64,000 nucleotides of DNA from Nitratireductor sp. XY-223 (GTDB lineage: Bacteria > Pseudomonadota > Alphaproteobacteria > Rhizobiales > Rhizobiaceae). The stretch spans positions 124,001 to 188,000 of the forward strand of contig NZ_SPNT01000003.1 in the NCBI RefSeq assembly GCF_004959855.1. The letters are read 5' to 3'. The notes beneath the pieces were generated by a model. That model searched no databases. It worked only from the letters and a program-made list of their open reading frames with translations, and was not told the DNA's origin. The position numbers and the translations under genes were made by a program. Of the stretch, positions 10,376 to 53,792 are shown piece by piece (position 1 is the first letter of the stretch; each line of letters opens with the position of its first letter).

Positions 10376-12190
10376 ATGGAGCGCAAGATGGGAACCAGCG
10401 GCGACGGCAAACAGCGCAGGTTGAGATCTCGGGAGTGGTTCGACAATCCGGACAATCCGGATATGACCGCGCTCTATCTGGAACGCTATCTCAATTACGG
10501 GCTGACCCGCGAGGAACTGCAATCCGGAAAGCCGATCATCGGCATTGCCCAGACAGGCTCCGATCTTTCGCCGTGCAACCGGCCGCACCTCGAACTGGCA
10601 AAGCGGGTCCGCGAGGGCATTCGCGAAGCCGGGGGCATTGCCATCGAGTTTCCAGTCCATCCGATCCAGGAGACCGGCAAGCGGCCGACCGCCTCGCTCG
10701 ACCGCAATCTCGCCTATCTCGGGCTGGTCGAGGTGCTCTACGGCTATCCGCTGGACGGAGTCGTTCTGACCACCGGCTGCGACAAGACCACACCGGCCTG
10801 CCTGATGGCCGCCGCGACCGTGGACCTTCCGGCAATCGTGCTGACCGGCGGGCCGATGCTCAACGGTTGGTTCCACGGCGAACGCGTCGGGTCGGGTACG
10901 GTGGTCTGGAAGGCCCGGGAACTGCTGTCCGAGGGCAAGATCGACTACGACACGTTCATCGAAATGGTGTCCGATTCGGCCCCGTCCATCGGCTACTGCA
11001 ACACCATGGGCACCGCGACCACGATGAACACGCTTGCCGAGGCGCTCGGCATGTCCCTGCCGGGCTGCGCATCGATACCGGCGCCGTATCGTGAGCGTGC
11101 TCAAATCGCCTATCTGACCGGCAAGCGCATCGTCGACATGGTCAACGAGGATTTGAAACCCTCCGACATCATGACGCGCGAGGCGTTCGAGAACGTCATT
11201 GCCGTCAATTCTGCGATCGGCGGATCAACGAATGCACCAATTCACATGAACGCCATTGCCCGGCATGTCGGCGTGGCGCTGTCGCTGGACGATTGGGAGA
11301 ATCGCGGTCTCGACGTTCCCCTGATCGTCAACCTGCAGCCGGCCGGAGAGTATCTCGGCGAGGATTTTCACCGCGCCGGCGGCGCGCCGGCGGTGATCGG
11401 CGAGCTGATGCGCCATGGCCTGATCCACGAGGGCGCCATCACCGCAAACGGGAGAACGATCGGCGACAACTGCCGCGGTATCGTCAGCGAGAATGCCGAT
11501 GTCATTCGCGATTTCGACCACGCCCTGAAGGAACAGGCCGGATTCAAGGTCATGCGCGGCAACATATTCGATGCCGCCGTCATGAAGCTGAGCGTGATTT
11601 CCGAAACGTTCCGGGAACGCTATCTGTCGGATCCGCAACACCCGAAACGGTTCGAGGGTAGGGCGATCGTTTTCGACGGACCGGAGGATTATCACCACCG
11701 CATCGACGATCCGGCGCTCGCGATCGATGAGAACTGCATATTGTTCATGCGCGGCGCCGGGCCGATCGGCTATCCGGGTGCGGCCGAAGTGGTGAACATG
11801 CGCGCGCCCGACTACCTCCTCAAGAAGGACATTCGCGAACTGCCCTGCATCGGCGACGGTCGCCAGTCGGGAACCTCCGGCTCGCCGTCCATCCTGAACG
11901 CCTCGCCCGAGGCCGCCGCCGGCGGCAACCTGGCCCTGTTGAAGACCGGCGACCGGGTTCGCATCGATCTCGGTGCCGGAACGGTGGACATGCTGGTCGA
12001 GGATTCCGAAATCGAACGCCGCCGCTCGGAACTCGGCGCCGCCGGAGGTTACCAATATCCGGCATCGCAGACGCCCTGGCAGGAGTTGCAGCGCGGCGAT
12101 GTCGACCAGCTATCGGACGGAATGGTTCTCAAAAGCGCCGTGAAGTATCAGCGCATCGCGTCAAAAGGGATGCCGCGCGACAACCACTGA
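10376..12190 (+). CDS. IlvD/Edd family [2Fe-2S] sugar-acid (pentonate) dehydratase
   Basis: This 604-residue dehydratase converts an aldonic acid to its 2-keto-3-deoxy form in the cytosol. Cluster-ligand cysteines are Cys67 (DLSPCNRPH), Cys135 ([10 protein letters not shown]) and Cys208 (YCNTMGTA). Their 68- and 73-residue spacing equals that of the characterised Rhizobium L-arabinonate dehydratase, which separates it from IlvD and Edd proper. The base-donating serine lies in [15 protein letters not shown] precedes the ATG. The exact sugar acid (arabinonate, xylonate, fuconate) is unresolved. No dedicated aldolase, transporter or dehydrogenase is adjacent. A dyad-rich promoter precedes it. 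Confidence 0.9.
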
Positions 12191-13112: not shown

Positions 13113-13265
13113 CTGTGACCTTCCGGACATTGTCCCCCGGTGGTCAGATACGGCATCCGGCCGGCAAAGCAAAGCCGGACGTCATCAATTACCGACACGC
13201 ATGGATATGGTCGGAACGTCAAATTGGGCTGATTTATCGGCTGGGTGGACGGCTTGACGCCTGTC

Positions 13266-15341
13266 TCAGCGCCTTCCGAAACGCAGGTCCGCGACGATGT
13301 CGGAGGACTGGCCGAGCCGGACCTTGTAGACTTGGTAGTTCTCCATAACCCGCTGCACATAGTTGCGCGTCTCGGTGAACGGGATCTGCTCGACCCAGTC
13401 GACGATATAGTCGATCGACTTGCCGCGCGGATCGCCGTATTTCTCGATCCACTGCCGCGACCGGCTGGGCCCTGCATTATAGGCAATGAAGGTCAGGATG
13501 TAGGATCCGTCGAAATCGGCGATGTGCTCGCCGAGATAGTGGGCGCCCAGGGTCGCGTTATAGGCCGCGTCGCGCGTCAGCTTGGCCTTGGAATAGGCGA
13601 TGCCGTGTTTCCTGGCGACCGACTTGGCGGTGGTCGGCAGCAATTGCAGCAATCCCCTTGCATTGGCCTTGGAGACCGCCGCCTTGTCGAACGCGCTTTC
13701 CTGGCGGGCAATCGCATAGGCGAGCGCTTTGCCGGATCCGGAGATGTTGGCGTTTGCCGGAATGACACCCGTGGGGAAGGCGAGCGCGGCAACGTTGAGG
13801 CCGCGGTAAAAGGCGATCTTGCCGACCTGCAGGGAAAGGCGGTGCTCGCCCTGCTTCTCGGCCATGGCAGCGAGTATCGCGAGTTCGCCCGGACTGGTCA
13901 GTTCGCGGGCAAGGGCAATGTAGAGTGCCTTGGCCCGGTGACCATGGCCGGTTTCGGTAAGGCGGTGGATGGCGCGCACCGCGCGGCGCCCGGCAAAGTG
14001 CGTGCGTTCCGTCGCGGTCGGCGACGGGTAGCGCACGTTGATGCCCTTCCTGTTGATCCGTGCCGCGGCCAGCTGCCCGTAATAGGTCGCGGAGAACCGC
14101 GCCGCCTGGGCGAAATAGTCGCTGGCTTTTCCGGGACCGCCGGCCTCGGCTGCCCGGCCGAGCCAGTAATAGCTGCGCGACAGGGACAGTGGCCGTGTGG
14201 CTGCGTTGAGCGCCCGTTGAAAATGCGCCGCTGCCGTCTTGCCGTCATTGGAAAGCCGAAGCGCGTACCAGCCGGCGTGCCATTCCGATTCGATTATGTC
14301 CTTGGGCCGGCTGGACACATGGTGCGCGGCAATCCGGTAGGCGGTCCTCAGGTCCCCCTTGTCGGCCAACGCCCGCGAGACAATGCGCGTTTCGACCCAC
14401 CATTCGTGCGTGTTGACGAGCGCATCGGGATTGCGGGGCGCCTGGAGCAGCAGCTCGGCCGCTTTGTCGTAGTTTTTCTTGCGGCGATGATAGGAGACGC
14501 GAGCGAACAGTAGGCCCGGGTCTTTTTGCAAGCTTGGATGCACCGCCGCGATCAACTTGGCGGCCTTCGAGCTCTTGCGGATCGCCGCGGCCCGCGCCTT
14601 GAACAGCGATTGCGCGTTGGCCAGCGCGTCGACGCGGTCCGCCTGGGTGATGCGGTCGCGATACAAAAGCATGTCCATGCGGCGCTTGTGGTCGGCGCGC
14701 GTCAGCAATCCGGAAAATTCCTTGAGGATGAGGGACTCCAGCCTCTTGTCCAGGACTTCGCCGCGCCAGACGGGCGCGATGACCGCCGCCGCCCGGGGTT
14801 TCTGGCCTGTTGCCTTGAGCGCGCGGGCCAGTGCGATCGCCCCTTCGACGGTCTCCGGCCTGCTCGTTCCGAATGCGGTGATTACCTGTTGCGGCGTGGC
14901 GCCCTCGCGCGACAGTGCCCGTTCCGACTTCACCCGCAGCACGGCAAGGCCGGGCCAGTGGGCGAGTTCGCCCGCCGCAGCGGCGATTTCGGAGGAGGGC
15001 ACGCCCGTTGCGCCGGAGATGGCGATGGCCCAGGTCAGCACCTCGCGGTCGAGGGAGCCGCGCGGCAGGCTGTCGCGGATGGCGCGGGAGGTCTTGATCT
15101 CGTTGTCGGAAAGCGCATCCAGGCCCTTCTTGAGCTGACTGGATTTTATCGAGGGATCTGCGGTCCTGTGAACAGAGGAGGTCGTGTCGTGCGGCGAGAC
15201 GACATTGTTCGCCAACTGCTGCGTGCCGGGCCGGGATTTCGGTACCGGCACCTTGGACAGGCTGATCTCGGCGCCGGCCGTGTATGCCGAACTGAAAACG
15301 AGGGAGGAAGCCAGCAGTGTCGTGAAAGCCAGTCTGAACAT
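13266..15341 (-). CDS. Soluble lytic murein transglycosylase (SLT domain)
   Basis: This 691-residue periplasmic protein begins with a signal peptide (FTTLLASSLVFSSAYTAGA, residues 6-24). A long alpha-helical repeat superhelix (about 60-500) precedes a C-terminal SLT domain (about 535-670) with the catalytic glutamate at about 548 in AIARQESAFD, then ARGLLQLLPTTA and FIAYNAGPSR motifs. It cleaves peptidoglycan between MurNAc and GlcNAc, leaving 1,6-anhydroMurNAc, as in Slt70. It is divergent from dapA, whose product feeds diaminopimelate into the same polymer. Confidence 0.92.
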   Translation of the reverse strand: MFRLAFTTLLASSLVFSSAYTAGAEISLSKVPVPKSRPGTQQLANNVVSPHDTTSSVHRTADPSIKSSQLKKGLDALSDNEIKTSRAIRDSLPRGSLDREVLTWAIAISGATGVPSSEIAAAAGELAHWPGLAVLRVKSERALSREGATPQQVITAFGTSRPETVEGAIALARALKATGQKPRAAAVIAPVWRGEVLDKRLESLILKEFSGLLTRADHKRRMDMLLYRDRITQADRVDALANAQSLFKARAAAIRKSSKAAKLIAAVHPSLQKDPGLLFARVSYHRRKKNYDKAAELLLQAPRNPDALVNTHEWWVETRIVSRALADKGDLRTAYRIAAHHVSSRPKDIIESEWHAGWYALRLSNDGKTAAAHFQRALNAATRPLSLSRSYYWLGRAAEAGGPGKASDYFAQAARFSATYYGQLAAARINRKGINVRYPSPTATERTHFAGRRAVRAIHRLTETGHGHRAKALYIALARELTSPGELAILAAMAEKQGEHRLSLQVGKIAFYRGLNVAALAFPTGVIPANANISGSGKALAYAIARQESAFDKAAVSKANARGLLQLLPTTAKSVARKHGIAYSKAKLTRDAAYNATLGAHYLGEHIADFDGSYILTFIAYNAGPSRSRQWIEKYGDPRGKSIDYIVDWVEQIPFTETRNYVQRVMENYQVYKVRLGQSSDIVADLRFGRR

Positions 15342-15643: not shown

Positions 15644-16525
15644 ATGTTCAAGGGGTCTCTTCCGGCGTTGGTCACACCGTTCAACGACGCCGGTGAATTC
15701 GACGAAACCGCCTTCCGCAGCTTTGTGGAATGGCAGATTTCCGAGGGAAGCCATGGTCTCGTGCCTGTCGGCACGACCGGCGAATCCCCAACCCTTTCGC
15801 ATGACGAGCACAAACGGGTCATCGAGCTCTGCGTTGAGACGGCGGCCGGACGCGTTCCCGTCATTGCCGGTGCCGGATCGAACAACACCGGCGAGGCGAT
15901 CGACCTGGCGCAGCACGCCGAAAGGGCCGGCGCCGATGCCGTGCTTGTTGTCACGCCTTACTACAACAAGCCCAACCAGCGCGGCCTCTATGCCCATTAC
16001 GCGTCGATCGCGGAGGCGATTTCGCTGCCGATCTTCATCTACAACATCCCCGGACGCTCCATCATCGATATGAGCGTCGAGACGATGGCGGCGCTCGCCG
16101 GCGACTTCGACAACGTCGTCGGAACGAAAGACGCGACCGCCAAACTGGACCGCGTTTCCGAACAGCGGCAGTCCTGCGGTGCCGACTTCATCCAGCTGTC
16201 GGGCGAGGACGGCACGGCCTTGGGCTTCAACGCCCATGGCGGCGTCGGCTGCATCTCCGTCACCGCCAATGTGGCGCCGCGGCTTTGCGCCGAGTTCCAG
16301 GAGGCCATGGCCAAGGGCGACTATGCCGGTGCGCTGGAGTACCAGGACCGTCTCATGCCGCTGCACAAGGCGCTGTTCCTGGAGCCCAATCCGGGCGGCA
16401 CGAAATACGCGCTCAGCAGGCTCGGCCAGATGACCGACACCCAGCGCCTGCCGCTGGTTCCCATCGAGGCGCAGACCCGTGCCGCGATTGACGACGCCAT
16501 GCGCCATGCGGGCATCGTGAACTAG
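15644..16525 (+). CDS. dapA: 4-hydroxy-tetrahydrodipicolinate synthase
   Basis: This 293-residue class I aldolase of the DapA family condenses pyruvate with aspartate semialdehyde, the first committed step to lysine and diaminopimelate. Visible motifs are SLPALVTPF at the N-terminus, [14 protein letters not shown] (pyruvate and substrate contacts), [17 protein letters not shown] with the proton-relay Tyr, YNIPGRS, and VVGTKDAT with the Schiff-base Lys. The ATG at 15644 is chosen for its DapA-like N-terminus and AGGAG site; the frame opens earlier at 15536. smpB follows 28 bp downstream. Confidence 0.97.
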
Positions 16526-16553
16526 GGGGCGATGCCGGGAACGGTTGAATATC

Positions 16554-17030
16554 ATGTCGAAGGCCGGTTCAAAGCCAGCGCGGCGCGTCGTCGCGGAAAA
16601 CCGCAAGGCGCGCTTCAACTACGAGATTCTCGACACGTTTGAAGCGGGGCTGGTGCTGACCGGCACCGAGGTCAAGTCCCTGCGCGAGGGCAAGGCCAAC
16701 ATCGCCGAATCCTACGCGACGGAGGAGGGCGGCGAGATCTGGCTGATCAATTCCTATTTGCCGGAATATCTGCAGGCCAACCGCTTCAACCACGAAACGC
16801 GGCGTCGGCGCAAGCTGCTGCTCAACAAACGCGAAGTGCGCAAGCTCATCGGCGCCGTCCAGCGCGAGGGCATGTCGCTGGTGCCGCTGAAAATCTATTT
16901 CAACGATCGCGGCCGCGCCAAGCTGGAGATCGCGCTGGCAAGGGGCAAGAAGCTCCATGACAAGCGTGAGACCGAGAAGAAGCGCGACTGGGAGCGCCAG
17001 AAGGCCCGACTCATGCGCGAGAAGGGCTGA
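16554..17030 (+). CDS. smpB: SsrA-binding protein SmpB
   Basis: This 158-residue protein has the SmpB core: [54 protein letters not shown] and the basic tail [19 protein letters not shown]. It binds tmRNA and delivers it to stalled ribosomes for trans-translation. The ATG at 16554 replaces an upstream TTG at 16545. It follows dapA as in many alphaproteobacteria. Its last 20 bases overlap the 3' end of the convergent uracil-DNA glycosylase gene. The tmRNA gene itself is not in this window. Confidence 0.97.
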
Positions 17031-17706
17031 CGGCTACCGGTGCAGGTTCATTAAGAAAGTTCGCTATGTCTTTGAAGACATTTGTGAACATGTCCTCGGT
17101 TAGCCGGCCTGTATTGGTGTTGTACCGCGAGCAATGATAGCTGGAGAAGACTTCAAGACCGCCGGCCTGCGTCCGTCCGGCGTGGCGGAACGGATGGGCC
17201 GATACGCGCTCGCCCAGAGCCCGCACGGTGGAATCGTGTGCGATCTTGCCGAGCGTCAGGATGGCGCGCAGGTTCGGCATCGCTCCGATCGAGGCGGATA
17301 GGAAGCGTCGGCATGTGTTGATCTCGGCGCCGACCGGCTTGTTTTCCGGCGGAACGCAGCGCACCGCGTTGGTAATGGCCGTTTCGACCAGTTCGACGCC
17401 GTCGTCCGGCCGCGCCGCGAAAGATCCGCGCGAGAATCCGAATCGCGAGAGTGTGCCGTAAAGGAGATCGCCGGCAAAATCACCGGTGAACGGCCGCCCG
17501 GTCCGGTTTGCGCCGCGCAGTCCCGGGGCAAGTCCGACAATGAGCAAACGCACGGAAGCCGGACCGTCTTCGGGGCAGAAGGTCTCCACGGGCGCGTTGT
17601 GCCATTCGGGGTGTAACTCGCGCTGTGCGGCGATGAAGGCATGCAGTCGCGGACACAATGCGCAGTTGCGGTCGGGATCGGTGGGGTCGGTCATGCCTGC
17701 CGGCAT
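17011..17706 (-). CDS. Uracil-DNA glycosylase, family 5-type (UdgB)
   Basis: This 231-residue Fe-S glycosylase starts with [10 protein letters not shown], whose cysteines begin the [4Fe-4S] ligand set, and has the family motif [19 protein letters not shown]; further cysteines occur at [10 protein letters not shown] and NTCRRF, and HCSRYN near the C-terminus is the second active-site region. Family 5 enzymes lack the usual polar catalytic residue of motif A and excise uracil, hypoxanthine or other deaminated bases. The gene is convergent with smpB with a 20-bp overlap. A start at 17694 (MTDPTD) is an alternative. Confidence 0.87.
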
Positions 17707-43800: not shown

Positions 43801-44547
43801 ATGGCAAAGGTGGCGATCATAACCGGGGCAGGGCGCGGCATCGGCGCCGCGACGGCGATACTGGCCGCGCAGCACGGCTACGATGTCTGTGTCAACTACG
43901 CGTCCAATGCCGAAGCCGCAGAGCGGACAGCCGGGACATGCGCCGCGCATGGGGTCAAGGCGGCTGCCAAGAGGGCCGATGTGGCGTTGCCCGACGAAGT
44001 AGCGGCGCTGTTCGAATTTTGCGACGCGGAACTCGGTCCGCCGGCACTGCTCGTCAACAATGCCGGGGTGATCGGAGGGGCGACGACAGTCGAGAACCTT
44101 TCCGACGCGGTGCTGCAGCGGACCTTTGCGGTCAATGTCGAGGGTGCCTTCTACTGCGCGAGGGAAGCCATCAAGCGCATGTCGACCGCCCATGGCGGCA
44201 GCGGCGGGGTGATCGTCAACATATCCTCGATCGCTGCGACGCTCGGCAGTCCCGGAGAGTATGTCCACTACGCCGCATCAAAGGCGGCGGTCGATGCCAT
44301 GACCATCGGCCTTTCCAAGGAAGTCGGCCCACTCGGCATCCGGGTCAACGCCATTCAGGCCGGCACCGTCGATACCGACATACACAGGACGGAAGGCAAC
44401 CCGGACCGCCCGGCAATGGTCGCCAACTCCGCGCCTCTCGGGCGGGCGGGCCTCGCGCAGGATATCGCCGAGGCGGTCCTGTGGCTGGCCTCCGGAAAAT
44501 CGTCATACACAACGGGTTCGATTGTGCGCATTGCCGGCGGGCTCTGA
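43801..44547 (+). CDS. Short-chain dehydrogenase/reductase
   Basis: This 248-residue classical SDR has the cofactor loop TGAGRGIG (8-15), NNAG (about 87-90) and the catalytic YXXXK in YVHYAASKAA, with a Ser about 13 residues earlier. A late DIAEAVLWLASG is typical of FabG-like/sugar SDRs. Position and spacing tie it to rarD, and it precedes the AraC-headed catabolic island by 91 bp on the same strand. Substrate is unknown; an alcohol or sugar oxidation in that island is possible. Confidence 0.9.
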   Translation: MAKVAIITGAGRGIGAATAILAAQHGYDVCVNYASNAEAAERTAGTCAAHGVKAAAKRADVALPDEVAALFEFCDAELGPPALLVNNAGVIGGATTVENLSDAVLQRTFAVNVEGAFYCAREAIKRMSTAHGGSGGVIVNISSIAATLGSPGEYVHYAASKAAVDAMTIGLSKEVGPLGIRVNAIQAGTVDTDIHRTEGNPDRPAMVANSAPLGRAGLAQDIAEAVLWLASGKSSYTTGSIVRIAGGL

Positions 44548-44638: not shown

Positions 44639-45679
44639 ATGCAGCGATATGCGTGTGATTTCATGGGCGATCAGCCTCTGACCAATCTGGATTTCTTTGA
44701 CGGTGGACCGGGCGCCGGCGCGTGCTTCCGCTCCGATCAGCCGGCGGTTGCCCAGAACATCATGAGCGAGCGCTACAAATCGCATCACCTGACGTGCCTT
44801 GCTGGCGATCTTGATTTCGATTTCTTCCACGTCGGCGCCGAAGTCCCCGTCGGGTCCTTCAACGTCCTGCGTTACGGCTCCCATGTCGAGATCGACCCGG
44901 GCGCCTTCAAGGACTTCTTCATGCTCGAAATGCCGGTCGCCGGCGGCGCCCGCGTACAGCAGGGCGGAATGCACCTGGGATCGAGCTATGACACGGCGCT
45001 GTTTCTTTCGCCGGATCAACGCATCCACTCCGTCTGGGCCAGGGGCACGACCCAGCTGATGCTCAAGATCAAGCGCTCCGAGCTCATTACCCGGTGGCAA
45101 CAGCGGCTCGACAATCCGGTCGCCGAATTGCCGGAAGTGTCGCCCGAAATTGATCTGAACCGGCCTGCCGGCTGGCGGATCAGGCGGCTGATGCACCTTC
45201 TTTATGAGGAACTGGAGCGAAGCCTTCGGCTCGACAACGGGAGTGTCGCACAAACACCGCTGGCGGCTGCGGTGATCGACAACGTCTTTGAGTATTGGGC
45301 CGACGTCCACGGCCACCTTCTGGAGGGCCCGGCCTTCAGGATTTTGCCGGTCCACATCAAACGCAGTGTCGCCTATATCGAAGACCACCTTTCGAAGGAC
45401 CTCAGAGTATCGACGCTTGCCCGCGTCGGGAACGTCAGCGAGCGCACGATCTATGACGGGTTCCTAAAATTCCTGAAGCGTTCTCCCAAGCAATATGTCC
45501 TCGAGCGCCGCCTGAACCGGGCGAGGCAGGATTTGATTTCGGGAAAGGGTTCGGTGGCCGGCGTGGCGCGCAAATACGGCATAAACCATCTCGGACGTTT
45601 TTCTCAGTACTACCGGATCAGATACGGGGAAAATCCGTCGGAGACCTTGCTTCAAAGGCAACGCCGGCTCGTCTCGTGA
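44639..45679 (+). CDS. AraC family transcriptional regulator
   Basis: This 346-residue protein has an N-terminal AraC-binding-like beta domain (about 30-200, FNVLRYGSHVEIDPGAFKDF) and a C-terminal double helix-turn-helix (about 240-340), with KDLRVSTLARVGNVSERTI and the second-helix region NHLGRFSQYYRIRYGENPSE. It heads a gene row of TrpA-like aldolase, FGGY kinase and ABC importer, so it most likely activates that island on sensing the imported compound or a derivative. Its stop overlaps an upstream GTG of the next frame. Confidence 0.9.
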   Translation: MQRYACDFMGDQPLTNLDFFDGGPGAGACFRSDQPAVAQNIMSERYKSHHLTCLAGDLDFDFFHVGAEVPVGSFNVLRYGSHVEIDPGAFKDFFMLEMPVAGGARVQQGGMHLGSSYDTALFLSPDQRIHSVWARGTTQLMLKIKRSELITRWQQRLDNPVAELPEVSPEIDLNRPAGWRIRRLMHLLYEELERSLRLDNGSVAQTPLAAAVIDNVFEYWADVHGHLLEGPAFRILPVHIKRSVAYIEDHLSKDLRVSTLARVGNVSERTIYDGFLKFLKRSPKQYVLERRLNRARQDLISGKGSVAGVARKYGINHLGRFSQYYRIRYGENPSETLLQRQRRLVS

Positions 45680-45753
45680 GGATTGATGCGGCATTCGGAT
45701 ATCGCCGCGCTTTCTGGAGTTGCGGGGTCTGCCGCCGCGTGCAGATTGCGCCC

Positions 45754-46518
45754 ATGGACGGAACCGGCAGCGCGCTATTCGACCGCATCGATGCATCTGG
45801 CAGCAAACTTCTTTCGGCGTACTTTCCGGTGTGCGATCCGCTGGTGCCGCTCGACTATCTGAAAATCTACGATGAATTCGGGGTCGATCTGATCGAGCTC
45901 GGCATCAAGTCGGCCAATCCCCACCACGACGGCGACACGATCAGGCAATCGATGTTGCGTTCAACCGGACAAGGACGCCTGGCGGATGCCGGCGAGGCGT
46001 TGCGGATGACGGCAGGTCTCGCAGGCGGCTCGCTCGGCGTGATCTTCGCCTATCCGCAGCCGGGACTGGCAGAGGAGACGTTTGACTGGACAGGAACCGA
46101 CATACTCCTTTGCGCGGGTGCGGATGGCAGCCACCGCGAACGCCTGGTCTCGGATGCGAAATCGGCCGGCGTATCGACTGCCGAGTTTGCGCCCCATCAC
46201 ATGCGCGAAGGGGATCTTGCCCGGGCACGGTCGGCCACATCCTACGTGTTTCTGCAATACGCGGCCGGCAAAACCGGCATCCGGGCCGGATTCGACCGCT
46301 CGGCCAAGGCCCGGTTGCAGCGTCTTCGGCAAAGCGGCGTCTCGGTCCCGGTTCTGCTCGGTGTCGGCCTTTCGACACCCGATCAGTGCAGGCATGCCCT
46401 GGACTGCGGCGCGGACGGCATTGTGATCGGATCGAAAACCGTGAAGATGGCCGAAAAGGGCAGGGCGGCCCTGTCGGACTATCTTGGCGAAATCAGGCAG
46501 GTGATTGATGGAAGGTGA
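45754..46518 (+). CDS. TrpA-like TIM-barrel aldolase (tryptophan synthase alpha homologue without TrpB)
   Basis: This 254-residue protein aligns along its length with tryptophan synthase alpha. The catalytic pair is present: Glu48 in DLIELGIKSA and Asp59 in HHDGDTI, equivalent to E. coli Glu49 and Asp60. Phosphate-binding elements also remain: KTGIRAG (173-179), GVGLSTPDQ (203-211) and IGSKTVK (225-231). The indole-side residues differ, and no trpB is near. It lies between an AraC regulator and an FGGY kinase it overlaps by 11 bases, so a retro-aldol cleavage of a phosphorylated sugar-like compound is inferred, not true tryptophan synthesis. The ATG at 45754 is chosen from TrpA length; an in-frame GTG at 45676 overlaps the araC stop. 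Confidence 0.85.
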   Translation: MDGTGSALFDRIDASGSKLLSAYFPVCDPLVPLDYLKIYDEFGVDLIELGIKSANPHHDGDTIRQSMLRSTGQGRLADAGEALRMTAGLAGGSLGVIFAYPQPGLAEETFDWTGTDILLCAGADGSHRERLVSDAKSAGVSTAEFAPHHMREGDLARARSATSYVFLQYAAGKTGIRAGFDRSAKARLQRLRQSGVSVPVLLGVGLSTPDQCRHALDCGADGIVIGSKTVKMAEKGRAALSDYLGEIRQVIDGR

Positions 46519-47977
46519 CCTGGTCATTGGGATTGACGTTGGAACGACGGCGGTCAAGGCGGGCCTGCTGGATTCGACGGGTGTCCTGGTGGACTACTTT
46601 TCCGCCCCCTATGCAACCAGCCGGCCGGATAGCGCCCTGGTCGAGCAGAACCCGGAGGACTGGGTTTCGCTTGTGTCGGCTTCGCTCGAGCGGTTCGCGG
46701 CAAAGGACCTGCCGATTGCCGCCATAGGGCTTTGCTCGCAGGTCAATACCCATGTCTTCGTCGGTGCGGACGGTGCGCCGCTTTTTCCCGCCATTGTCTG
46801 GCAGGACGGCCGCGCCGGCGCCGAAGCAGCCGAGCTTGACGCCCGCGTTTCGGACAAACAGCGGATTGCCTGGTGGGGAGCGCCGATGCCGATCGACGCC
46901 AGCAACGCGCTGGCCCGGATGCTCTGGATGGCGCGCCACAGGCCGGATGTCTGGGAAAAGACCAGGTATGTGATGCTGCCCAAGGACTACTGTATCTTCC
47001 GGCTGACGGGCGAGTTGACCGCCGATCCGCTGTCCAACATCGGTCTTGTGGGGCAATCGCTTGACTATGTTCCCGACGCGCTGGAGCTGGTGCCCGGAGC
47101 GGCCGAGCGCCTCGTCCCGCTCAGGGACATGAAATCGCTGGTCGGCCGCGTGCGCCACGGATCGGCGGCCGGCATACCGGTTGCCAATGGCACCATGGAC
47201 GCCTGGACGGGATTGCTCGGTTCCGGCGGCCATGCCGACAGGACCACCGTCTATCTCAGCGGCACCAGCGAAATCCTCGGCATTACCAGCCGGACCGTCA
47301 AGGCGACGCCGGGTGTCGTTGTCTTCCCGGAATACCAGAACATTCGCCTGCATGCCGGTCCCACCCAGTCGGGTGGCGCTTCGCAATTGTGGTATTGCGG
47401 GCTGCAGGGACTTCAGCCCGACGAGATGGCCGCCCTGGCGGCGCGCTCGGATTTCGATCGCCCCGCGCCCATTTTCCTCCCGCATCTGCACGGCGAGCGG
47501 GCACCGGTGTGGAACGCGGATGCGAGGGCCCTCTTTCTCGGGATCGAGGAACGCACATCAGGCGCGGACATGGCCCGCGCGGTCTATGAGGGCGTGGCCT
47601 TTTCCGCCCGGCTGCTGTTGCAGAGCCTTGAGGCCTCCGCCGGGATTGAGAACGATGCCATCAATTGTGGCGGCGGAGGCTTCCAGACAGAAATCTGGAA
47701 CCAGATCCGCGCCAACGTGCTCGGCCGTCAGTGCCGCAGACTGGCGGTCAAGGATCCGGGCGTTCTGGGTGCGGCCGGGCTGGCCGGCTGGGCGATCGAA
47801 ATGCATCCGGACCTTTCGGCGATCTTCCGGCAGATCACGCGTTTCGATCGCACCTACGAGCCGGATCCCGAGATGCATGCATTGTATGACCGTCTTTTTT
47901 CGATCTATGTCGATGCAATCGCGGCCAACGCCGAACTTTGCCGGGCATGGTTGAACGCCGATGCCGGGCGCGCCTGA
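46508..47977 (+). CDS. FGGY family carbohydrate kinase
   Basis: This 489-residue kinase of the xylulokinase-like branch has VIGIDVGTTAVKAGL at the N-terminus, IVWQDGRA, the catalytic Asp231 in NGTMDAWTGLLGSG, YLSGTSEILG and the late INCGGGGFQTEIWNQI nucleotide-binding motif. It phosphorylates a sugar or polyol with ATP in the cytosol. The start at 46508 is preceded by AGGTGA and overlaps the aldolase gene, which indicates coupling. The substrate is not readable from sequence; xylulose is only the nearest family name. Confidence 0.92.
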   Translation: MEGDLVIGIDVGTTAVKAGLLDSTGVLVDYFSAPYATSRPDSALVEQNPEDWVSLVSASLERFAAKDLPIAAIGLCSQVNTHVFVGADGAPLFPAIVWQDGRAGAEAAELDARVSDKQRIAWWGAPMPIDASNALARMLWMARHRPDVWEKTRYVMLPKDYCIFRLTGELTADPLSNIGLVGQSLDYVPDALELVPGAAERLVPLRDMKSLVGRVRHGSAAGIPVANGTMDAWTGLLGSGGHADRTTVYLSGTSEILGITSRTVKATPGVVVFPEYQNIRLHAGPTQSGGASQLWYCGLQGLQPDEMAALAARSDFDRPAPIFLPHLHGERAPVWNADARALFLGIEERTSGADMARAVYEGVAFSARLLLQSLEASAGIENDAINCGGGGFQTEIWNQIRANVLGRQCRRLAVKDPGVLGAAGLAGWAIEMHPDLSAIFRQITRFDRTYEPDPEMHALYDRLFSIYVDAIAANAELCRAWLNADAGRA

Positions 47978-47990
47978 TGCGGGACCACTA

Positions 47991-48040
47991 TCCGAAAACT
48001 GCTGTTTTCGACGGTTGAAATGCCGGACAGGTCCGAAAAC
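47991..48040 (+). repeat. Repeated TCCGAAAAC motif with hairpin between kinase and binding-protein genes
   Basis: TCCGAAAAC occurs at 47991-47999 and 48032-48040; the inverted copy GTTTTCG at 48004-48010 makes a perfect 7-bp stem with a TGCT loop (47993-48010). In the 127-bp gap before the ABC operon this may be a regulator site or an mRNA hairpin. There is no T run that would make it a clear terminator. Confidence 0.5.
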
Positions 48041-48104
48041 GGTTCTTCATCCGCAGGAGCGCGCCTATTCTTTCACGAACAACGACATAACCGGGAGGAA
48101 AATA

Positions 48105-49022
48105 ATGTTTGTTGCCGGAACGATCGCAAGAACCTTTACCGCGCTGGTCCTGTTTACCGGCGTGGCCATGGCCCAGAACGTCACCGTCGTCACCCCGTAT
48201 CTGGCCCAGCCCGGAACCCAGATGTACGTTGAGGGATTTCAGGCCGAAGCCGCCGACAAGGGCTGGAACGTCAATGTCATTGATACCGCCGGCGACGTTG
48301 CCGCCGTTATCAGCCGTATAGAGGACGCGGTCACGCAGAAGGTCGATGCCATCGTCATCAATGTCGATCCGGCGCAAATTGCCGCCGGTCTGGAGACCGC
48401 TGCGGCCGCCTCGATTCCGGTGATCGGCATGGACAGCGGCGCCGATCCGCTGGTCGCGACCAACGTCACCTCGAATGGCTATGCGATGGCGGCGGAGACC
48501 GCAGTCTACGTCGCCAACCGCATCGAGGGCAAGGGCCGTGTCGTCATGTTCGTGTTCGACGCCTTTCCGCCCGTGCAGATCCGCGGGGTCATCGCGGATG
48601 CGGTGTTCGGAAATTTCCCCGACATCGAGGTTATCGACCGCATCACGCCGGACGTGCAGGACGGCGGCATTGCCGACAGCCGCGCCAAGATGGAGGCCAT
48701 CCTGGCAGCCAATCCGGAGCCGGGAAGCATTTCGGCCGTCTGGGCCGCTTGGGATCAGCCGGCCCTCGGCTCGCTGCAGGCGATCGAGGATGCCGGACGG
48801 GCTGACGAGGGCATCGTGATCGTCGGTATAGACGCCAATCCGCAGGCCCGCGATGCCATTGCGGCCGGCGGCAATTTCGAGGCGTCCATTGCGCAGGACT
48901 TCATCGGCATCGGCAAGGCCACGGCGAATGCGGTATCGCGGGCCATTTCCGGAGAAGAAATTCGGGAGAAGGTGATTTACGTTCCAACGGTCCTGGTGAC
49001 AAAGTCGAATGTAGACAAGTAG
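48105..49022 (+). CDS. Sugar ABC transporter substrate-binding protein (RbsB-like)
   Basis: This 305-residue periplasmic protein has a signal peptide (residues 1-23, cleavage AMA-QN) and a type I periplasmic binding fold: VVTPYLAQPGTQMYVEGF, VDAIVINVDPAQIAAGLE, IPVIGMDSGAD and IVIVGIDANPQARDAI. Such proteins bind ribose, galactose, xylose, AI-2 or polyols. GGGAGG precedes the ATG. It begins a binding protein-ATPase-permease set and follows the FGGY kinase, so it likely delivers the kinase substrate. Confidence 0.93.
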   Translation: MFVAGTIARTFTALVLFTGVAMAQNVTVVTPYLAQPGTQMYVEGFQAEAADKGWNVNVIDTAGDVAAVISRIEDAVTQKVDAIVINVDPAQIAAGLETAAAASIPVIGMDSGADPLVATNVTSNGYAMAAETAVYVANRIEGKGRVVMFVFDAFPPVQIRGVIADAVFGNFPDIEVIDRITPDVQDGGIADSRAKMEAILAANPEPGSISAVWAAWDQPALGSLQAIEDAGRADEGIVIVGIDANPQARDAIAAGGNFEASIAQDFIGIGKATANAVSRAISGEEIREKVIYVPTVLVTKSNVDK

Positions 49023-49082
49023 GCTCCTTGCCGATCCTGGCGGACCCCGGCCGGGGTCTGCCCCGTTCCGGAGGATGCGGCG

Positions 49083-50582
49083 ATGCATGAGCTTTCCATC
49101 CGCAATCTGTCGAAATCCTTCGCCGGATCGCCAGCGCTGGCCGATGTGAGCCTGGATCTGCGTGGTGGCGAGATCCATGCCCTGATGGGAGAGAACGGCG
49201 CCGGAAAGAGCACCTTGATCCGCATCCTCGCGGGGGTCGAGACCGCTGACGCGCTGGAACTGGAGAAGGACGGCCGCCGGTTGCCGCTCGCCAATGCCAA
49301 AAACGCCTATGACGCCGGCTTCCGCTTCATCCACCAGGAACTGAACATCGTCCCGCAGCTCTCGGCGGCTGAGAACATCCTACTCGGTCTGCCTTATCCG
49401 AGCCGCTTCGGGATCGCGGTGAATTGGAAGGAACTCAACACCCGGGCCAGAAACGCCTTGTCGCGCCTTGGCATCGACCATATCGAACCCGCACGGCAGG
49501 CAGCGCGTTTCAATACGGGCGATCAGATGCTCATAAAGATCGCAAGCTGCCTGGTCGACGCCGAGGGCATGACCGCCGATCTTTATGTATTTGATGAGCC
49601 GACGGCCGCATTGACCGGCGAGGAATCGGAAAAGCTGTTTCGCGTAATTGCCGGTTTGAAGGAAAGCGGCGCCGCGGTGCTGTACGTTTCCCACCGCATA
49701 AACGAAGTGATGCGGCTGTGTGATCGCGTCACCGTGCTTCGCGACGGCCGCAATGCCCTGACGGCTCCGATTTCCAGGACCGGCAAGGAGGAGATCATTA
49801 TCGCGATGACCGGGCGGTCCGTCGAGGACATGTATCCGCCGCGTTCGCGCGCCATCGGCGCGGCGGTGGCCTATGCGGCATCCGGTGTATCGACGAAAGA
49901 GGTGTCGGGGCTCGAATTCGAATTGCGCGCCGGCGAGATACTCGGCGTCGCCGGCCTGGCTAATGCCGGGCAAAGCGGGGTGTTGCGAACAGTCATGGGG
50001 CTGTCGGAGCCACGCCAGGGACGTCTTGAGTGCCTCTCGGGAGCCGCGCCGAAATCGCCGTCAGAGGCCTGGAAGAGCGGGATTGCCTATATTCCGAGGG
50101 AACGAAGGGGCGAAGGACTGATGCTCCAAATGCCGGTGCGCGACAATGCCGTTCTGCCGCATCTCGACACATTAAGGCGGCTGGCGTTTCTTGCGGACCG
50201 GCGCGGCGAGCAGGCGATGGCGCACAAGACATCCGAATATGTGCGCCTGAAGGCCGCCGGTCTTTCGCAGCCCGCCTACCAGCTTTCCGGCGGCAACCAG
50301 CAAAAGGTCCTGTTCGCGCGGGCGCTTGGCAAGACGCCATCGATCCTGGTTCTCGATGAGCCCACACGGGGTGTCGATATCGGCGCCAAATACGATATCT
50401 ACGCGCTTGTCCGGGAGCTGAGCGAGGCCGGGTGCGCGGTTGTGATGACTTCGACCGATCTGTCGGAGACCCTTGGCATGTGCGATCGCGTGCTGCTCAT
50501 GCGCGACGGCGCACAGCAGGCGATCGTCGATGCGGCAGGCCTGACGCCGGCGGACCTTCTGCGCCGGATTTATGCGTCGTGA
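49083..50582 (+). CDS. Sugar ABC transporter, dual ATPase subunit (RbsA/MglA-like)
   Basis: This 499-residue protein has two nucleotide-binding domains. The first has Walker A GENGAGKST and Walker B LYVFDEPTAAL, but its signature loop is eroded to FNTGDQML. The second has a degenerate P-loop (LANAGQSG), usual for this family, and an intact signature LSGGNQQK with VLDEPTRGVDIGAK. It powers sugar import. The permease gene begins 19 bp after its stop. Confidence 0.93.
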   Translation: MHELSIRNLSKSFAGSPALADVSLDLRGGEIHALMGENGAGKSTLIRILAGVETADALELEKDGRRLPLANAKNAYDAGFRFIHQELNIVPQLSAAENILLGLPYPSRFGIAVNWKELNTRARNALSRLGIDHIEPARQAARFNTGDQMLIKIASCLVDAEGMTADLYVFDEPTAALTGEESEKLFRVIAGLKESGAAVLYVSHRINEVMRLCDRVTVLRDGRNALTAPISRTGKEEIIIAMTGRSVEDMYPPRSRAIGAAVAYAASGVSTKEVSGLEFELRAGEILGVAGLANAGQSGVLRTVMGLSEPRQGRLECLSGAAPKSPSEAWKSGIAYIPRERRGEGLMLQMPVRDNAVLPHLDTLRRLAFLADRRGEQAMAHKTSEYVRLKAAGLSQPAYQLSGGNQQKVLFARALGKTPSILVLDEPTRGVDIGAKYDIYALVRELSEAGCAVVMTSTDLSETLGMCDRVLLMRDGAQQAIVDAAGLTPADLLRRIYAS

Positions 50583-50601
50583 ACCGGAATGCGGTGGATC
50601 T

Positions 50602-51564
50602 ATGATTAGGATACTCAAACTCTACGGCACCCTGATCGGCTTCGCCCTGATCATCGTGCTGTTTTCGGTCCTTCTGCCGGGCACGTTTTTGACGTCCGGC
50701 AACCTGATCAATATTTCCCAGCAGATCAGCATGCTGGCCGTCGTGGCCTTCACCATGACGATCGTCATGGTGATGAACGATTTCGATCTTTCGGTCGGCT
50801 CCATGGCAAGCCTCGCGGGCGTGACGGCGGCAGTTCTATTTTCGCTGGGATATCCGGTCTATGTCGGTGTTGCAGCGGCTCTGCTCGTCGGTCTGCTGGG
50901 AGGCGTTTTCAACGGCGTTCTCGTGTCTCTCGTCGGCATCCTGCCATTTGTCGCGACGCTCGGGACGCTCACCATGTTCAGTGGCCTCGCCTTCCTGGTC
51001 AGCGGCGGCCGGACCATATTCGGACGCGACATACCAAGTGAATTCTCCGGGTTTGCGCGCAGCGGCGTGCCCCTCGATTCCGTCGGTCTGGACGGGCTGA
51101 AACTGCCTTTTCTCAGCCTTGTGGCACTGGTCGTGCTTGCGGTTGTCTGGTTTGTGCTGGAGCAGACGACCTATGGACGGCGGCTTTATGCGATCGGAGG
51201 CAACAAGGAGGCCGCGCGGCTGGCGGGCGTGCGGGTCAAGTCGCTGCGCCTGTCGGCATTTGCGTTGACCGGGCTCGGCGCGGCCATCGCCGGCCTGATG
51301 TATTCGAGCCGTGTCGCATCGGCAAATCCGACACAGGGCAGCGGCCTCATGCTGGACGCGATCGCCGCCGTATTCCTGGGCATGACGATGAGCGAGGAAG
51401 GCGAACCGCGCGTTCAACACACTTTGGTCGGTGTGCTTATCCTCGGCGTGCTGGACAACGGCCTCACCCAGCTCGCCGTCGACAGCTACATCCGCGAGAT
51501 CATGGTCGGCGCGATCGTCATCACCGCAGTGGCGTTTTCAAGCATTACCAAGCAGGGAAGATAG
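50602..51564 (+). CDS. Sugar ABC transporter permease (RbsC-like)
   Basis: This 320-residue integral membrane protein has about nine helices and the family motifs MNDFDLSVGSMASLAG and YAIGGNKEAARLAGVRV (the ATPase-contact loop). It forms the channel for the importer. GGTGG is five bases before the ATG at 50602. It closes the island; its stop is three bases from the stop of the convergent esterase gene. Confidence 0.93.
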   Translation: MIRILKLYGTLIGFALIIVLFSVLLPGTFLTSGNLINISQQISMLAVVAFTMTIVMVMNDFDLSVGSMASLAGVTAAVLFSLGYPVYVGVAAALLVGLLGGVFNGVLVSLVGILPFVATLGTLTMFSGLAFLVSGGRTIFGRDIPSEFSGFARSGVPLDSVGLDGLKLPFLSLVALVVLAVVWFVLEQTTYGRRLYAIGGNKEAARLAGVRVKSLRLSAFALTGLGAAIAGLMYSSRVASANPTQGSGLMLDAIAAVFLGMTMSEEGEPRVQHTLVGVLILGVLDNGLTQLAVDSYIREIMVGAIVITAVAFSSITKQGR

Positions 51565-51567
51565 CCG

Positions 51568-52809
51568 TCAGAGCCCCATGCAGTTGGCGTAGAACGTGGT
51601 CGTCGCCGGCCAGTCGGAAAAGACGCCGACGACACCCACCTGACGGGCGAGCACGTCAAGAAGCACAAGCGCGTCGCCGTCGTTCCGTGTGATGTCGCCG
51701 ATGGTCTGGTAGTACCAGCCGCCGCCGGACGAGAGCGGCCCGGACCGCTCAAGCGTCCAGGTGATGATGTCGAGGCCGGCATCCCTGGCCGCGACCGCAT
51801 AGGCCGACGGAACCGGTTTTCCGTCGTCGCCTTTCGTCACCAGCACCCAGAGCGGCGGTGCGATATATTTGACGCCCATAGCCGCAAGCGCATCCATGGA
51901 GGGGTTCCAGGTGTTCGGATCCTGCGGATCGAACGCGCCGCGACTGAAACGGCCGTCGAGGAGGACGGCCTGTACGCCGAATTCCGGCTCGTTTTTGATC
52001 CAGTAGGTGACATCCGCCGGATTGAAAGACTGCGCGAAGACGCGGCTTGCTGGCACCTGCGCTTCCTTGTAGGTGTCGATCATTTTCTGGGCATATTGTT
52101 CCTGGGTGAAATCGCCCTCATAGGGCATGTCGACCGAGGGCGACTTGAGTTCGGGCGTATGCTTGACGCCGAGTTCCTCGAAGAGCGCGATGGATTCGGC
52201 AAGCGTCAACAGCCGCCCGCCCGTCGTGTAGAGATCCGTCCGCCATTTCGCCAGGCCGCCGACATATTCCTCGACCGTCGTCGCGTTCCTGTCGGCGGAT
52301 TCCATCTTGCCGGTCAGTTGGCGGTACTGTTCGAGCGTAATGTCCGATGTGCAGCATCTGGCCTGCGCCGGTTTGCCGCCGGCGGAATCGGCCGGCGTAA
52401 ACGGCACGCTGCAACTCGCGGCGATTTCCGGCTTCAGGAGTATATCGGTGGTCGTGTGCAGGTCGCATTGCGAATGGCGGCACACCAGCTCGCGGTCCTT
52501 GGTAAAGGTGACGTCGCATTCGAGGATACCGGCGCCCATGCGGGCCGCGGCGCGGTAGGACTGCTCTGTGTGCTCCGGAAACTGCAGCGGTGCGCCGCGG
52601 TGGCCGATCGAGAACTCGCTCTTGAAGAACGGCCCTTTCTCGCAGGCTTTCAGCGCTTCCTTCAATTCGCCGTCATTGAGACTGTCGAGCAGATAGAACG
52701 GGCGCGGACCGAGATGGACATTTGCTTGGTGCTCGTCGGCAATGGCCGGTGCGGCAAGATGCAGGAACAGGATGCAGGTCAGGCTGACGGGCAGAAATGC
52801 GAATTTCAT
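51568..52809 (-). CDS. Glycerophosphodiester phosphodiesterase, exported
   Basis: This 413-residue protein has a signal peptide (residues 1-25, ending APAIA) and the GDPD motifs [18 protein letters not shown] and [19 protein letters not shown], with catalytic His pair and metal-binding Glu/Asp. It hydrolyses glycerophosphodiesters to glycerol 3-phosphate in the periplasm. A cysteine-containing insert (about 120-155) is longer than in GlpQ. The start at 52809 has AAGGA six bases upstream. Confidence 0.9.
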
Positions 52810-52904
52810 GGTCATTCCTTCGGCGGATTTCAGGCAGTAACTATCGTCGGCGAAACTCAGTTCAATATCCACTCTATGAACACAGTACGACGAAGCGATA
52901 ACGC

Positions 52905-53792
52905 TCAGCGCTTCCAGACAACCGAATAGAGATCGTGGCGGCGGTCGGAGAGGTTCCTGACGGTACCCTCCCGGCGCGCCCGCTCGAGCGCCTGTAGGTC
53001 GAGGTCGGCGAAGATGATGGCCTCCGCGTTCTCGCTCGCCTCGGCAGCGATCCCGTCGCGCGCGAAGGGCAGGTCGCAGGGTGTCAGGATCGCTGAGCGC
53101 GCGAATGCGCTGTATTGTTCGGGAACATTGGAAAATTGCCCCGTCATCCCGGCGGTCGCGACATAGCACTGGTTCTCGACCGTCCGCGCGGCGCAGCAGT
53201 GGCGCACCCGCCAATGTCCGTGCACGGTGTCGGTCAGGTAGGGCACGAAGAGGACCAAGGCGCCCTGGTCGATCAGATGGCGTGCGAGTTCCGGAAATTC
53301 GCTGTCATAGCAGATCATCACGCCGACCGGTCCGCGGTCCGTCTCGATGATGTCGGCCGAGCCGCCGCCTTCAACCGACCAGGCACCGGCCTCCGTCGGG
53401 GTCGGATGCAGCTTGTCGCGCGCATGGGTGCTGCCGTCCCTCGTGAACACGAATGCGGTGTTTCGGGCCGTGCCGCCCTCGTCGACCGTCAGGTGCGAAC
53501 CGGCGACGATATTAATCCCGTTTTCGCGTGCCAGCGATCGGGTGCGGTCGGTGAACGCGACGGTGTGTGCGTGCGAACGCGCCGCTACGTCCCGCGATTC
53601 GATACGTTCTTCAGAGAAAAGCAGGCACAGTGTGAAGAGCTCGGGAAAGACCACGAAGTCCGCTTCGTAGTCAGCCGCCGCGCGCACGTGGAATTCGAGG
53701 CGTTCATAAAAGCCGGCCGGATCCATGGTTCTTTCCGCGCGCCACTGCACCGAAGCGACACGGATTGTTGCGGCATCCGAAGTCATGTCCAT
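52905..53792 (-). CDS. Carbon-nitrogen hydrolase (nitrilase superfamily)
   Basis: This 295-residue protein has the complete nitrilase triad: Glu51 (VFPELFTL), Lys127 ([11 protein letters not shown]) and Cys161 ([11 protein letters not shown]). The superfamily hydrolyses amides or nitriles through a thioester; the arrangement is amidase-like and the substrate is unknown. It is 15 bp downstream of the LOG gene and likely in one transcript with it. Confidence 0.9.

Follow-up and report, generated by a model that had tools for sequence, protein, structure and literature searches.

The window analyzed here is a 64,000-nucleotide stretch of the genome of Nitratireductor sp. XY-223 (contig NZ_SPNT01000003.1, positions 124,001 to 188,000), and it contains an operon that places a relative of TrpA, the tryptophan synthase alpha chain, beside an FGGY-family kinase and an ATP-binding cassette (ABC) importer. 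Operons of this kind, with genes for sugar import and a kinase, occur in some bacteria of soil and sea, and the TrpA relative built into them may cleave a phosphorylated sugar. The original prediction, made from the DNA letters, had described six co-directional genes comprising an AraC regulator, a TrpA-like aldolase, an FGGY kinase and a ribose-type importer, and had proposed that the imported compound is phosphorylated and then cleaved. The layout was confirmed: all six genes lie on the + strand, and each encodes a Pfam family above its cut-off. The features are as follows (window coordinates).

44639–45679, + strand: AraC-family regulator with AraC_binding_2 and HTH_18 domains (PF14525 and PF12833 above cut-off)
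45754–46518, + strand: TrpA-like protein, hereafter TrpAL (PF00290, 75 bits versus a cut-off of 27)
46508–46518, + strand: 11 bases shared by the end of TrpAL and the beginning of the FGGY kinase gene, predicted to couple their translation
46508–47977, + strand: FGGY kinase (PF00370 and PF02782), XylB-like but under the XylB cut-off
48105–49022, + strand: periplasmic sugar-type binding protein, RbsB-like (Peripla_BP_4, PF13407)
49083–50582, + strand: double ABC ATPase, RbsA/AraG-like (PF00005, two stretches)
50572–51564, + strand: permease, RbsC/AraH-like (BPD_transp_2, PF02653)

The binding protein, double ATPase and permease together form a complete ribose-type (CUT2) ABC importer by Pfam, and the kinase carries both halves of its family fold (FGGY_N, 104 bits versus a cut-off of 28.8; FGGY_C, 103 bits versus 27). 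An alignment of relatives favors ATG 45754 as the TrpAL start (the alternative is GTG 45739, and the mechanical open reading frame (ORF) opens at 45676), and ATG 48105 is the most likely start of the binding protein. Curated equivalog models name none of the operon proteins. The best curated match of the kinase is XylB (TIGR01312), which aligns over nearly the full length but reaches 236.9 bits versus a cut-off of 380.25, and that of the AraC protein is an anthranilate dioxygenase regulator, far under its cut-off (115.5 versus 350 bits).

TrpAL is a second, divergent TrpA in this genome. The canonical trpA scores 305.5 bits where TrpAL scores 72.7, and it lies directly 3′ of trpB on another contig (G000:C22), that trpB being the genome's sole match at E 1e-40. 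As had been predicted, no trpB is annotated in the operon region of the window. TrpAL falls under the cut-off of the trpA equivalog model TIGR00262 (72.4 versus 102.35 bits), and its closest relative, from Hoeflea poritis, is 67% identical (locus L033, 9966–10727). We built a tree of 74 rows comprising 16 TrpAL, 9 copies of a second TrpA encoded in some of the same operons (TrpA2, see below) and 49 other TrpA, with locus L111 omitted for length; the 49 canonical rows were drawn from 26 loci of the genome and its relatives and from 23 of the 73 non-TrpAL loci of a pattern scan. The TrpAL clade split from the 58 other rows with support of 100/98. Within it, the TrpAL of the two main operon types described below (types I and II) grouped together with support of 100/99, while placement of the type III TrpAL is less sure because it is a single row on a very long branch; the tree tool also warned of long branches meeting. 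By sequence and tree position, then, TrpAL is a paralogue rather than a tryptophan enzyme, and a Pfam match alone would suggest the misleading label “tryptophan synthase alpha.”

The residues of TrpA catalysis and phosphate binding are retained in TrpAL. The Glu48 and Asp59 pair and the GVGLS and IGS loops noted in the original prediction are all present in the window protein. Across the clade, Glu48 is kept in 16 of 16 rows and Asp59 in 15, with Glu in H. poritis (and in 3 of the 49 other TrpA), and the phosphate site is kept throughout (Thr174, Gly175, Gly205, Gly226 and Ser227, 16/16). Positions that we take, from Salmonella TrpA, to line the indole pocket and to dock TrpB are changed. The pocket Tyr of 49/49 other TrpA is Met or Phe in all 16 TrpAL, and the pocket Val of 48/49 is Gln in all 16; the aromatic [FY] of the presumed TrpB-docking loop, P-[FY]-[ST]-D-P, is found in 49/49 other TrpA and 9/9 TrpA2 but in 0/16 TrpAL. 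An AlphaFold model of TrpAL made from 18 sequences (predicted local distance difference test score 92, predicted template modeling score 0.91) has as its best solved folds BX1, a stand-alone indole-3-glycerol phosphate lyase of plants, followed by TrpA, with no epimerase among the 50 matches listed. The ratio of nonsynonymous to synonymous substitution rates (dN/dS) of 0.20, 0.33, 0.10 and 0.22 in four pairs indicates purifying selection on TrpAL.

We searched for TrpAL with a profile built from eight of its rows and found matches in 12/394 genomes of the family, 3/397 of the order (the window's genome included) and 1/289 of the class, the last being the window's own genome. A phylum sample of 269 genomes, searched at a looser limit, returned four weak matches besides the own genome; these look canonical: all four match canonical TrpA, none matches the window TrpAL at E 1e-5, and a trpB-type match lies alongside in three. 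Plasmids contained no TrpAL match at E 1e-5, and a type II query gave a single plasmid match, which lies on a Burkholderia replicon and proved to be canonical trpBA. A pattern scan with one genome per species kept at least 80 loci, among them at least seven TrpAL relatives at 36% identity or more, from Hoeflea poritis, two Rhizobiaceae metagenome-assembled genomes, Devosia equisanguinis, 'Marinicella sp. W31', a Rhizobiales assembly and Xaviernesmea rhizosphaerae.

Gene order, counted over 16 distinct TrpAL loci, is largely maintained. An FGGY kinase adjoins TrpAL in 16/16, an RbsB-type binding protein is found in 15/16 (in one of these 15, genome G113, the contig ends inside the ATPase gene), and 14/16 have an AraC relative upstream in the same orientation, with three ORFs intervening in G005. 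The phylogeny proposed with the original prediction recovers a clade of its own linked to these genes; TrpAL falls outside canonical TrpA, the genome has a second trpA, and relatives keep the gene order. Three operon types can be distinguished. Type I comprises five loci including the window, with the permease gene last where the contig allows. Of the ten type II loci, nine continue with a TrpB-like gene and TrpA2, and the tenth (Xaviernesmea) is without the TrpB-like gene, TrpA2 and the AraC gene. Type III is represented by a single locus (G713), where short-chain dehydrogenase/reductase (SDR) and FGGY genes lie upstream of TrpAL near a regulator with a sugar-binding domain, with no importer. 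The predicted 11-base overlap of TrpAL and kinase is real in the window and has counterparts elsewhere: each of the 15 operons of types I and II has an in-frame kinase ATG that overlaps the TrpAL stop, with 8 bases shared in 13 operons and 11 in two, and a later in-frame kinase start without overlap is also present in 8/15. Because the overlap is kept in 15/15 operons, it is more than chance, and the two genes are probably translationally coupled.

Further features of individual loci were noted. In a Rhizobiaceae metagenome-assembled genome (L034, 6988–9388) three ORFs separate AraC from TrpAL, unlike in L035. In 'Marinicella sp. W31' (L043) the kinase (10734–12143) and the ABC ATPase (13234–14697) match in several frames, as if frameshifted by sequencing error or decay. 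In the window, an SDR gene (43801–44547) with an 80% identical counterpart in H. poritis precedes the operon, and GDPD- and nitrilase-family genes (51568–53792) follow it, with likely H. poritis counterparts in the same place as judged by eye. These flanking SDR, GDPD and nitrilase genes likely reflect chromosomal synteny rather than operon membership.

The type II operons encode an unusual pair of tryptophan synthase relatives. In L044, the TrpB-like gene (15664–16848) and TrpA2 (16853–17698) stand at the operon end, and the same pair occurs in L042, L043, L132–L136 and L140. All three TrpB-like proteins tested score above the cut-off of the trpB model (406.7–409.0 versus 392.45 bits). However, the GAHKIN motif of TrpB reads GGNYAN in the type II proteins examined, from which it follows that the lysine that binds pyridoxal phosphate (PLP) is lost; in addition, an active-site Glu is replaced by Asp and a later LDYPG by LAYPG. 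The gene is nonetheless conserved (dN/dS of 0.03 and 0.16 in two pairs). In TrpA2 the two catalytic acids, the Tyr and Phe of the pocket and the docking loop are all retained, with one phosphate-site Gly replaced by Ala in 9/9. No such TrpB-like protein occurs in the window's genome, whose sole TrpB match at E 1e-40 is canonical.

The kinase and importer also occur as a cassette without TrpAL. We identified 27 such loci, all with the kinase and the binding protein, and 25 each with the ATPase and the permease within 5 kb; two of the 27 end early at contig ends. No TrpAL remnant matched at E 1e-3 in any of the 27, and at E 10 weak scattered matches appeared in at least eight loci. The AraC gene travels with TrpAL and not with the cassette: a relative lies near 1/27 TrpAL-less cassettes (window AraC query, E 1e-30, within 5 kb) versus 14/16 TrpAL loci. 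A kinase match at E 1e-70 was found in 11/101 relatives, six of them without a TrpAL match. A binding protein of at least 70% identity was found in 28/397 genomes of the order, two of which are also TrpAL-positive, namely the window's own and G713 (TrpAL on another contig). Identity to the window's binding protein is 69–83% at TrpAL-less loci, 35–37% in type II and 78–92% within type I. Among the kinases listed, those with and without TrpAL share the motif SQVNTH or a form of it that differs at one or two positions. Dedication is therefore one-way, in that TrpAL loci have the kinase but the kinase and importer occur without TrpAL. The original prediction had a dedicated pathway in which kinase and importer serve TrpAL; that claim is weakened by the 27 loci, their similar binding proteins and the shared kinase motif.

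The TrpAL-less cassettes bear on the nature of the ligand. Near L169 are xylose isomerase (xylA), a GH31 glycosidase and a LacI regulator; near L166, a GH43 xylosidase-type enzyme; near L216, a GH36 melibiase, a GlcNAc_2-epimerase-family protein and a PfkB kinase (six more loci of that genus have ORFs similar to these neighbors); and near L168, an SDR and an importer that is sugar-type by eye. Because some TrpAL-less cassettes adjoin sugar genes, the imported ligand is probably a sugar, the likeliest class on this neighborhood evidence, and we name no particular one. For the signal-processing role offered as an alternative in the original prediction we found no evidence, and the neighborhoods just described hold sugar genes. 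XylA was present in 22/22 genomes tested, with and without TrpAL, which rules out TrpAL as a replacement for xylose isomerase. A true XylB was present in 14/14 genomes tested, and in the window's genome it adjoins XylA, so the cassette kinase is not that genome's XylB. Hence the cassette kinase is a further paralogue. Near another TrpAL-less cassette (L220, 4669–6874), a DeoC/LacD-family aldolase gene adjoins a second FGGY kinase; by its family assignments this pair has the same kinase-plus-barrel-aldolase logic with a different aldolase.

We propose that TrpAL supplies an accessory step for a cassette of sugar importer and kinase. Control of the operon would probably fall to the AraC protein, and the RbsBAC-type importer would take up a sugar whose end the FGGY kinase would phosphorylate; this sugar is probably a ketose, or an aldose that undergoes isomerization first. 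TrpAL, probably translation-coupled to the kinase, would then act on the kinase product without TrpB. The terminal phosphate would be seated in the phosphate loops kept from TrpA, and Glu48 and Asp59 would carry out a retro-aldol cleavage that needs neither lysine nor metal and yields a triose phosphate together with another C3 fragment. TrpA cleaves indole-glycerol phosphate to indole and glyceraldehyde 3-phosphate (GAP). The proposed chemistry fits because a ketohexose 6-phosphate (O2=C2-C3-C4(OH)-C5(OH)-C6-phosphate) mirrors indole-glycerol phosphate (N1-C2=C3-C1'(OH)-C2'(OH)-C3'-phosphate). Since the acid pair and phosphate site are kept and the pocket is more polar, cleavage of the neighboring kinase's phosphoketose appears the likeliest role for TrpAL. 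The type III locus is consistent with this reading, as it joins TrpAL and FGGY genes with an SDR near a sugar-binding regulator. Overall, we tentatively regard TrpAL as an acid-base lyase that needs no TrpB and splits the phosphoketose made by the kinase, releasing a triose phosphate; this assignment, from residues and gene context, falls somewhat short of an even chance.

Several observations weigh against phosphoketose cleavage. The existence of 27 loci with kinase and binding protein but without TrpAL indicates that phosphorylated import is evidently manageable without it. In the kinase tree, the five kinases of type I are interspersed among eight from TrpAL-less loci, and it follows that losses or gains of TrpAL occurred several times with no visible change in the kinase or binding protein; this tree contains neither the frameshifted W31 kinase nor one short kinase from a TrpAL-less locus (L224), and its root was not used, two outgroup rows (L196 and L204) being evidently misread. 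TrpAL is the fastest-evolving operon gene in 4/4 pairs, H. poritis has Glu in place of Asp59, and many cassette neighborhoods, among those listed, are uninformative on sugar. Finally, a XylB-like kinase more usually makes a pentulose 5-phosphate, whose aldol cleavage yields no GAP.

Such a pentulose kinase would suit a different enzyme, one that isomerizes or epimerizes the kinase product and widens the usable sugar range. TrpF, HisA and ribulose-phosphate epimerase are acid-base enzymes in the same barrel superfamily, and the kept acid pair and phosphate site together with a more polar pocket would serve this activity as well; an optional, range-widening epimerase would also explain the TrpAL-less cassettes. 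However, the acid pair is TrpA's carbon-carbon cleavage pair and the fold search listed BX1 and TrpA but no epimerases, and we consider this role rather unlikely. If cleavage is retained and the substrate changed, TrpAL could be a BX1-like aryl-glycerol phosphate lyase, with indole- or phenol-glycerol imported, phosphorylated and split to GAP and an aromatic. Sequence and fold both give BX1 as the best match, type II operons add a TrpA2 with a canonical-looking pocket and a TrpB-like protein, and the sub-cut-off best match of the AraC protein regulates anthranilate dioxygenase. Against these points, the indole-pocket positions are changed in 16/16 TrpAL, and closely related cassette binding proteins adjoin sugar genes at some TrpAL-less loci; the pocket comparison and these cassettes lower the aryl-glycerol reading to an unlikely one.

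A non-metabolic function was also considered, in which a phosphosugar-binding TrpAL would act as a sensor or as the partner of another protein, such as the kinase or the AraC regulator. The optional place of TrpAL in the cassette, its tie to the AraC gene and its rapid evolution relative to the other operon genes would all suit this role, but Glu48 and an acid at position 59 in 16/16 rows point to catalysis, and the sensor is in our view improbable. That TrpAL is the organism's tryptophan synthase alpha chain has next to no chance of being right: the PF00290 cut-off is passed, but the claim is contradicted by the canonical trpA 3′ of trpB elsewhere in the genome, the missed equivalog model, the separation from 58/58 other TrpA rows and the absent TrpB-docking motif.

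If phosphoketose cleavage by TrpAL is correct, a broader evolutionary scenario can be drawn, which we consider possible but doubtful. The TrpA fold would have turned once into a cofactor-free sugar-phosphate aldolase, with a Glu/Asp pair, no Schiff-base lysine and no metal, acting on a phosphoketose that mimics indole-glycerol phosphate, and a sister-branch operon would have added a second TrpA with a TrpB pseudoenzyme as activator, in parallel to the tryptophan synthase beta (TSB)-like protein of plants. To our knowledge, only indole-forming cleavage has been described for TrpA. Among the papers listed in open-access PubMed Central (PMC), we recognized none, from titles and abstract openings, that describes a TrpA paralogue in an operon of this kind. 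A clade in which the catalytic pair is kept while the indole pocket and the partner are swapped would allow a change from biosynthetic to catabolic retro-aldolase to be tested directly.

TrpAL can be compared with several known systems. Canonical bacterial TrpA shares with it the fold, Glu48, Asp59 and the phosphate loops; TrpAL differs in its separate clade, its sub-equivalog score, the absence of a TrpB-docking loop and its position away from trpB. The XylB kinase has GQMHG where the window kinase has SQVNTH. The Lsr autoinducer-2 system combines an ABC importer, an FGGY kinase and a TIM-barrel enzyme. Its layout resembles that of the window operon, but its barrel enzyme belongs to another family and the window regulator is an AraC protein. 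The window kinase reaches 106.5 bits with the autoinducer-2 kinase model versus a cut-off of 528, the importer scores fall similarly short (LsrA, 326 versus 586 bits; LsrC, 132 versus 388 bits), and neither LsrF nor LsrG is found among the six operon genes by Pfam. The closest solved structure, BX1 (PDB 1rd5 and 1tjr), is likewise a stand-alone TrpA paralogue with the same catalytic Glu and Asp, and is TrpAL's best PDB match; the two share 24% identity in the fold alignment, and TrpAL is encoded in an importer-kinase operon. The pocket changes of TrpAL relative to the indole type were judged against the 49 canonical TrpA rows and not against BX1's own pocket.

The type II operons invite a further comparison. 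A plant TSB-like pseudoenzyme activates the tryptophan synthase alpha subunit (TSA) to release indole (PMC12727527). It is likewise a TrpB relative with lost catalytic residues, and the type II protein is encoded beside a TrpA. The losses differ: the type II TrpB-like protein loses the PLP lysine, whereas the plant TSB-like protein changes Glu105 and Asp300 (T. maritima numbering; PMC12727527). The type II TrpB-like protein and TrpA2 may plausibly form a bacterial parallel to the plant TSB-like system. If so, the TrpB-like protein would be a pseudoenzyme of bacteria whose gene is accompanied by that of its own TrpA.

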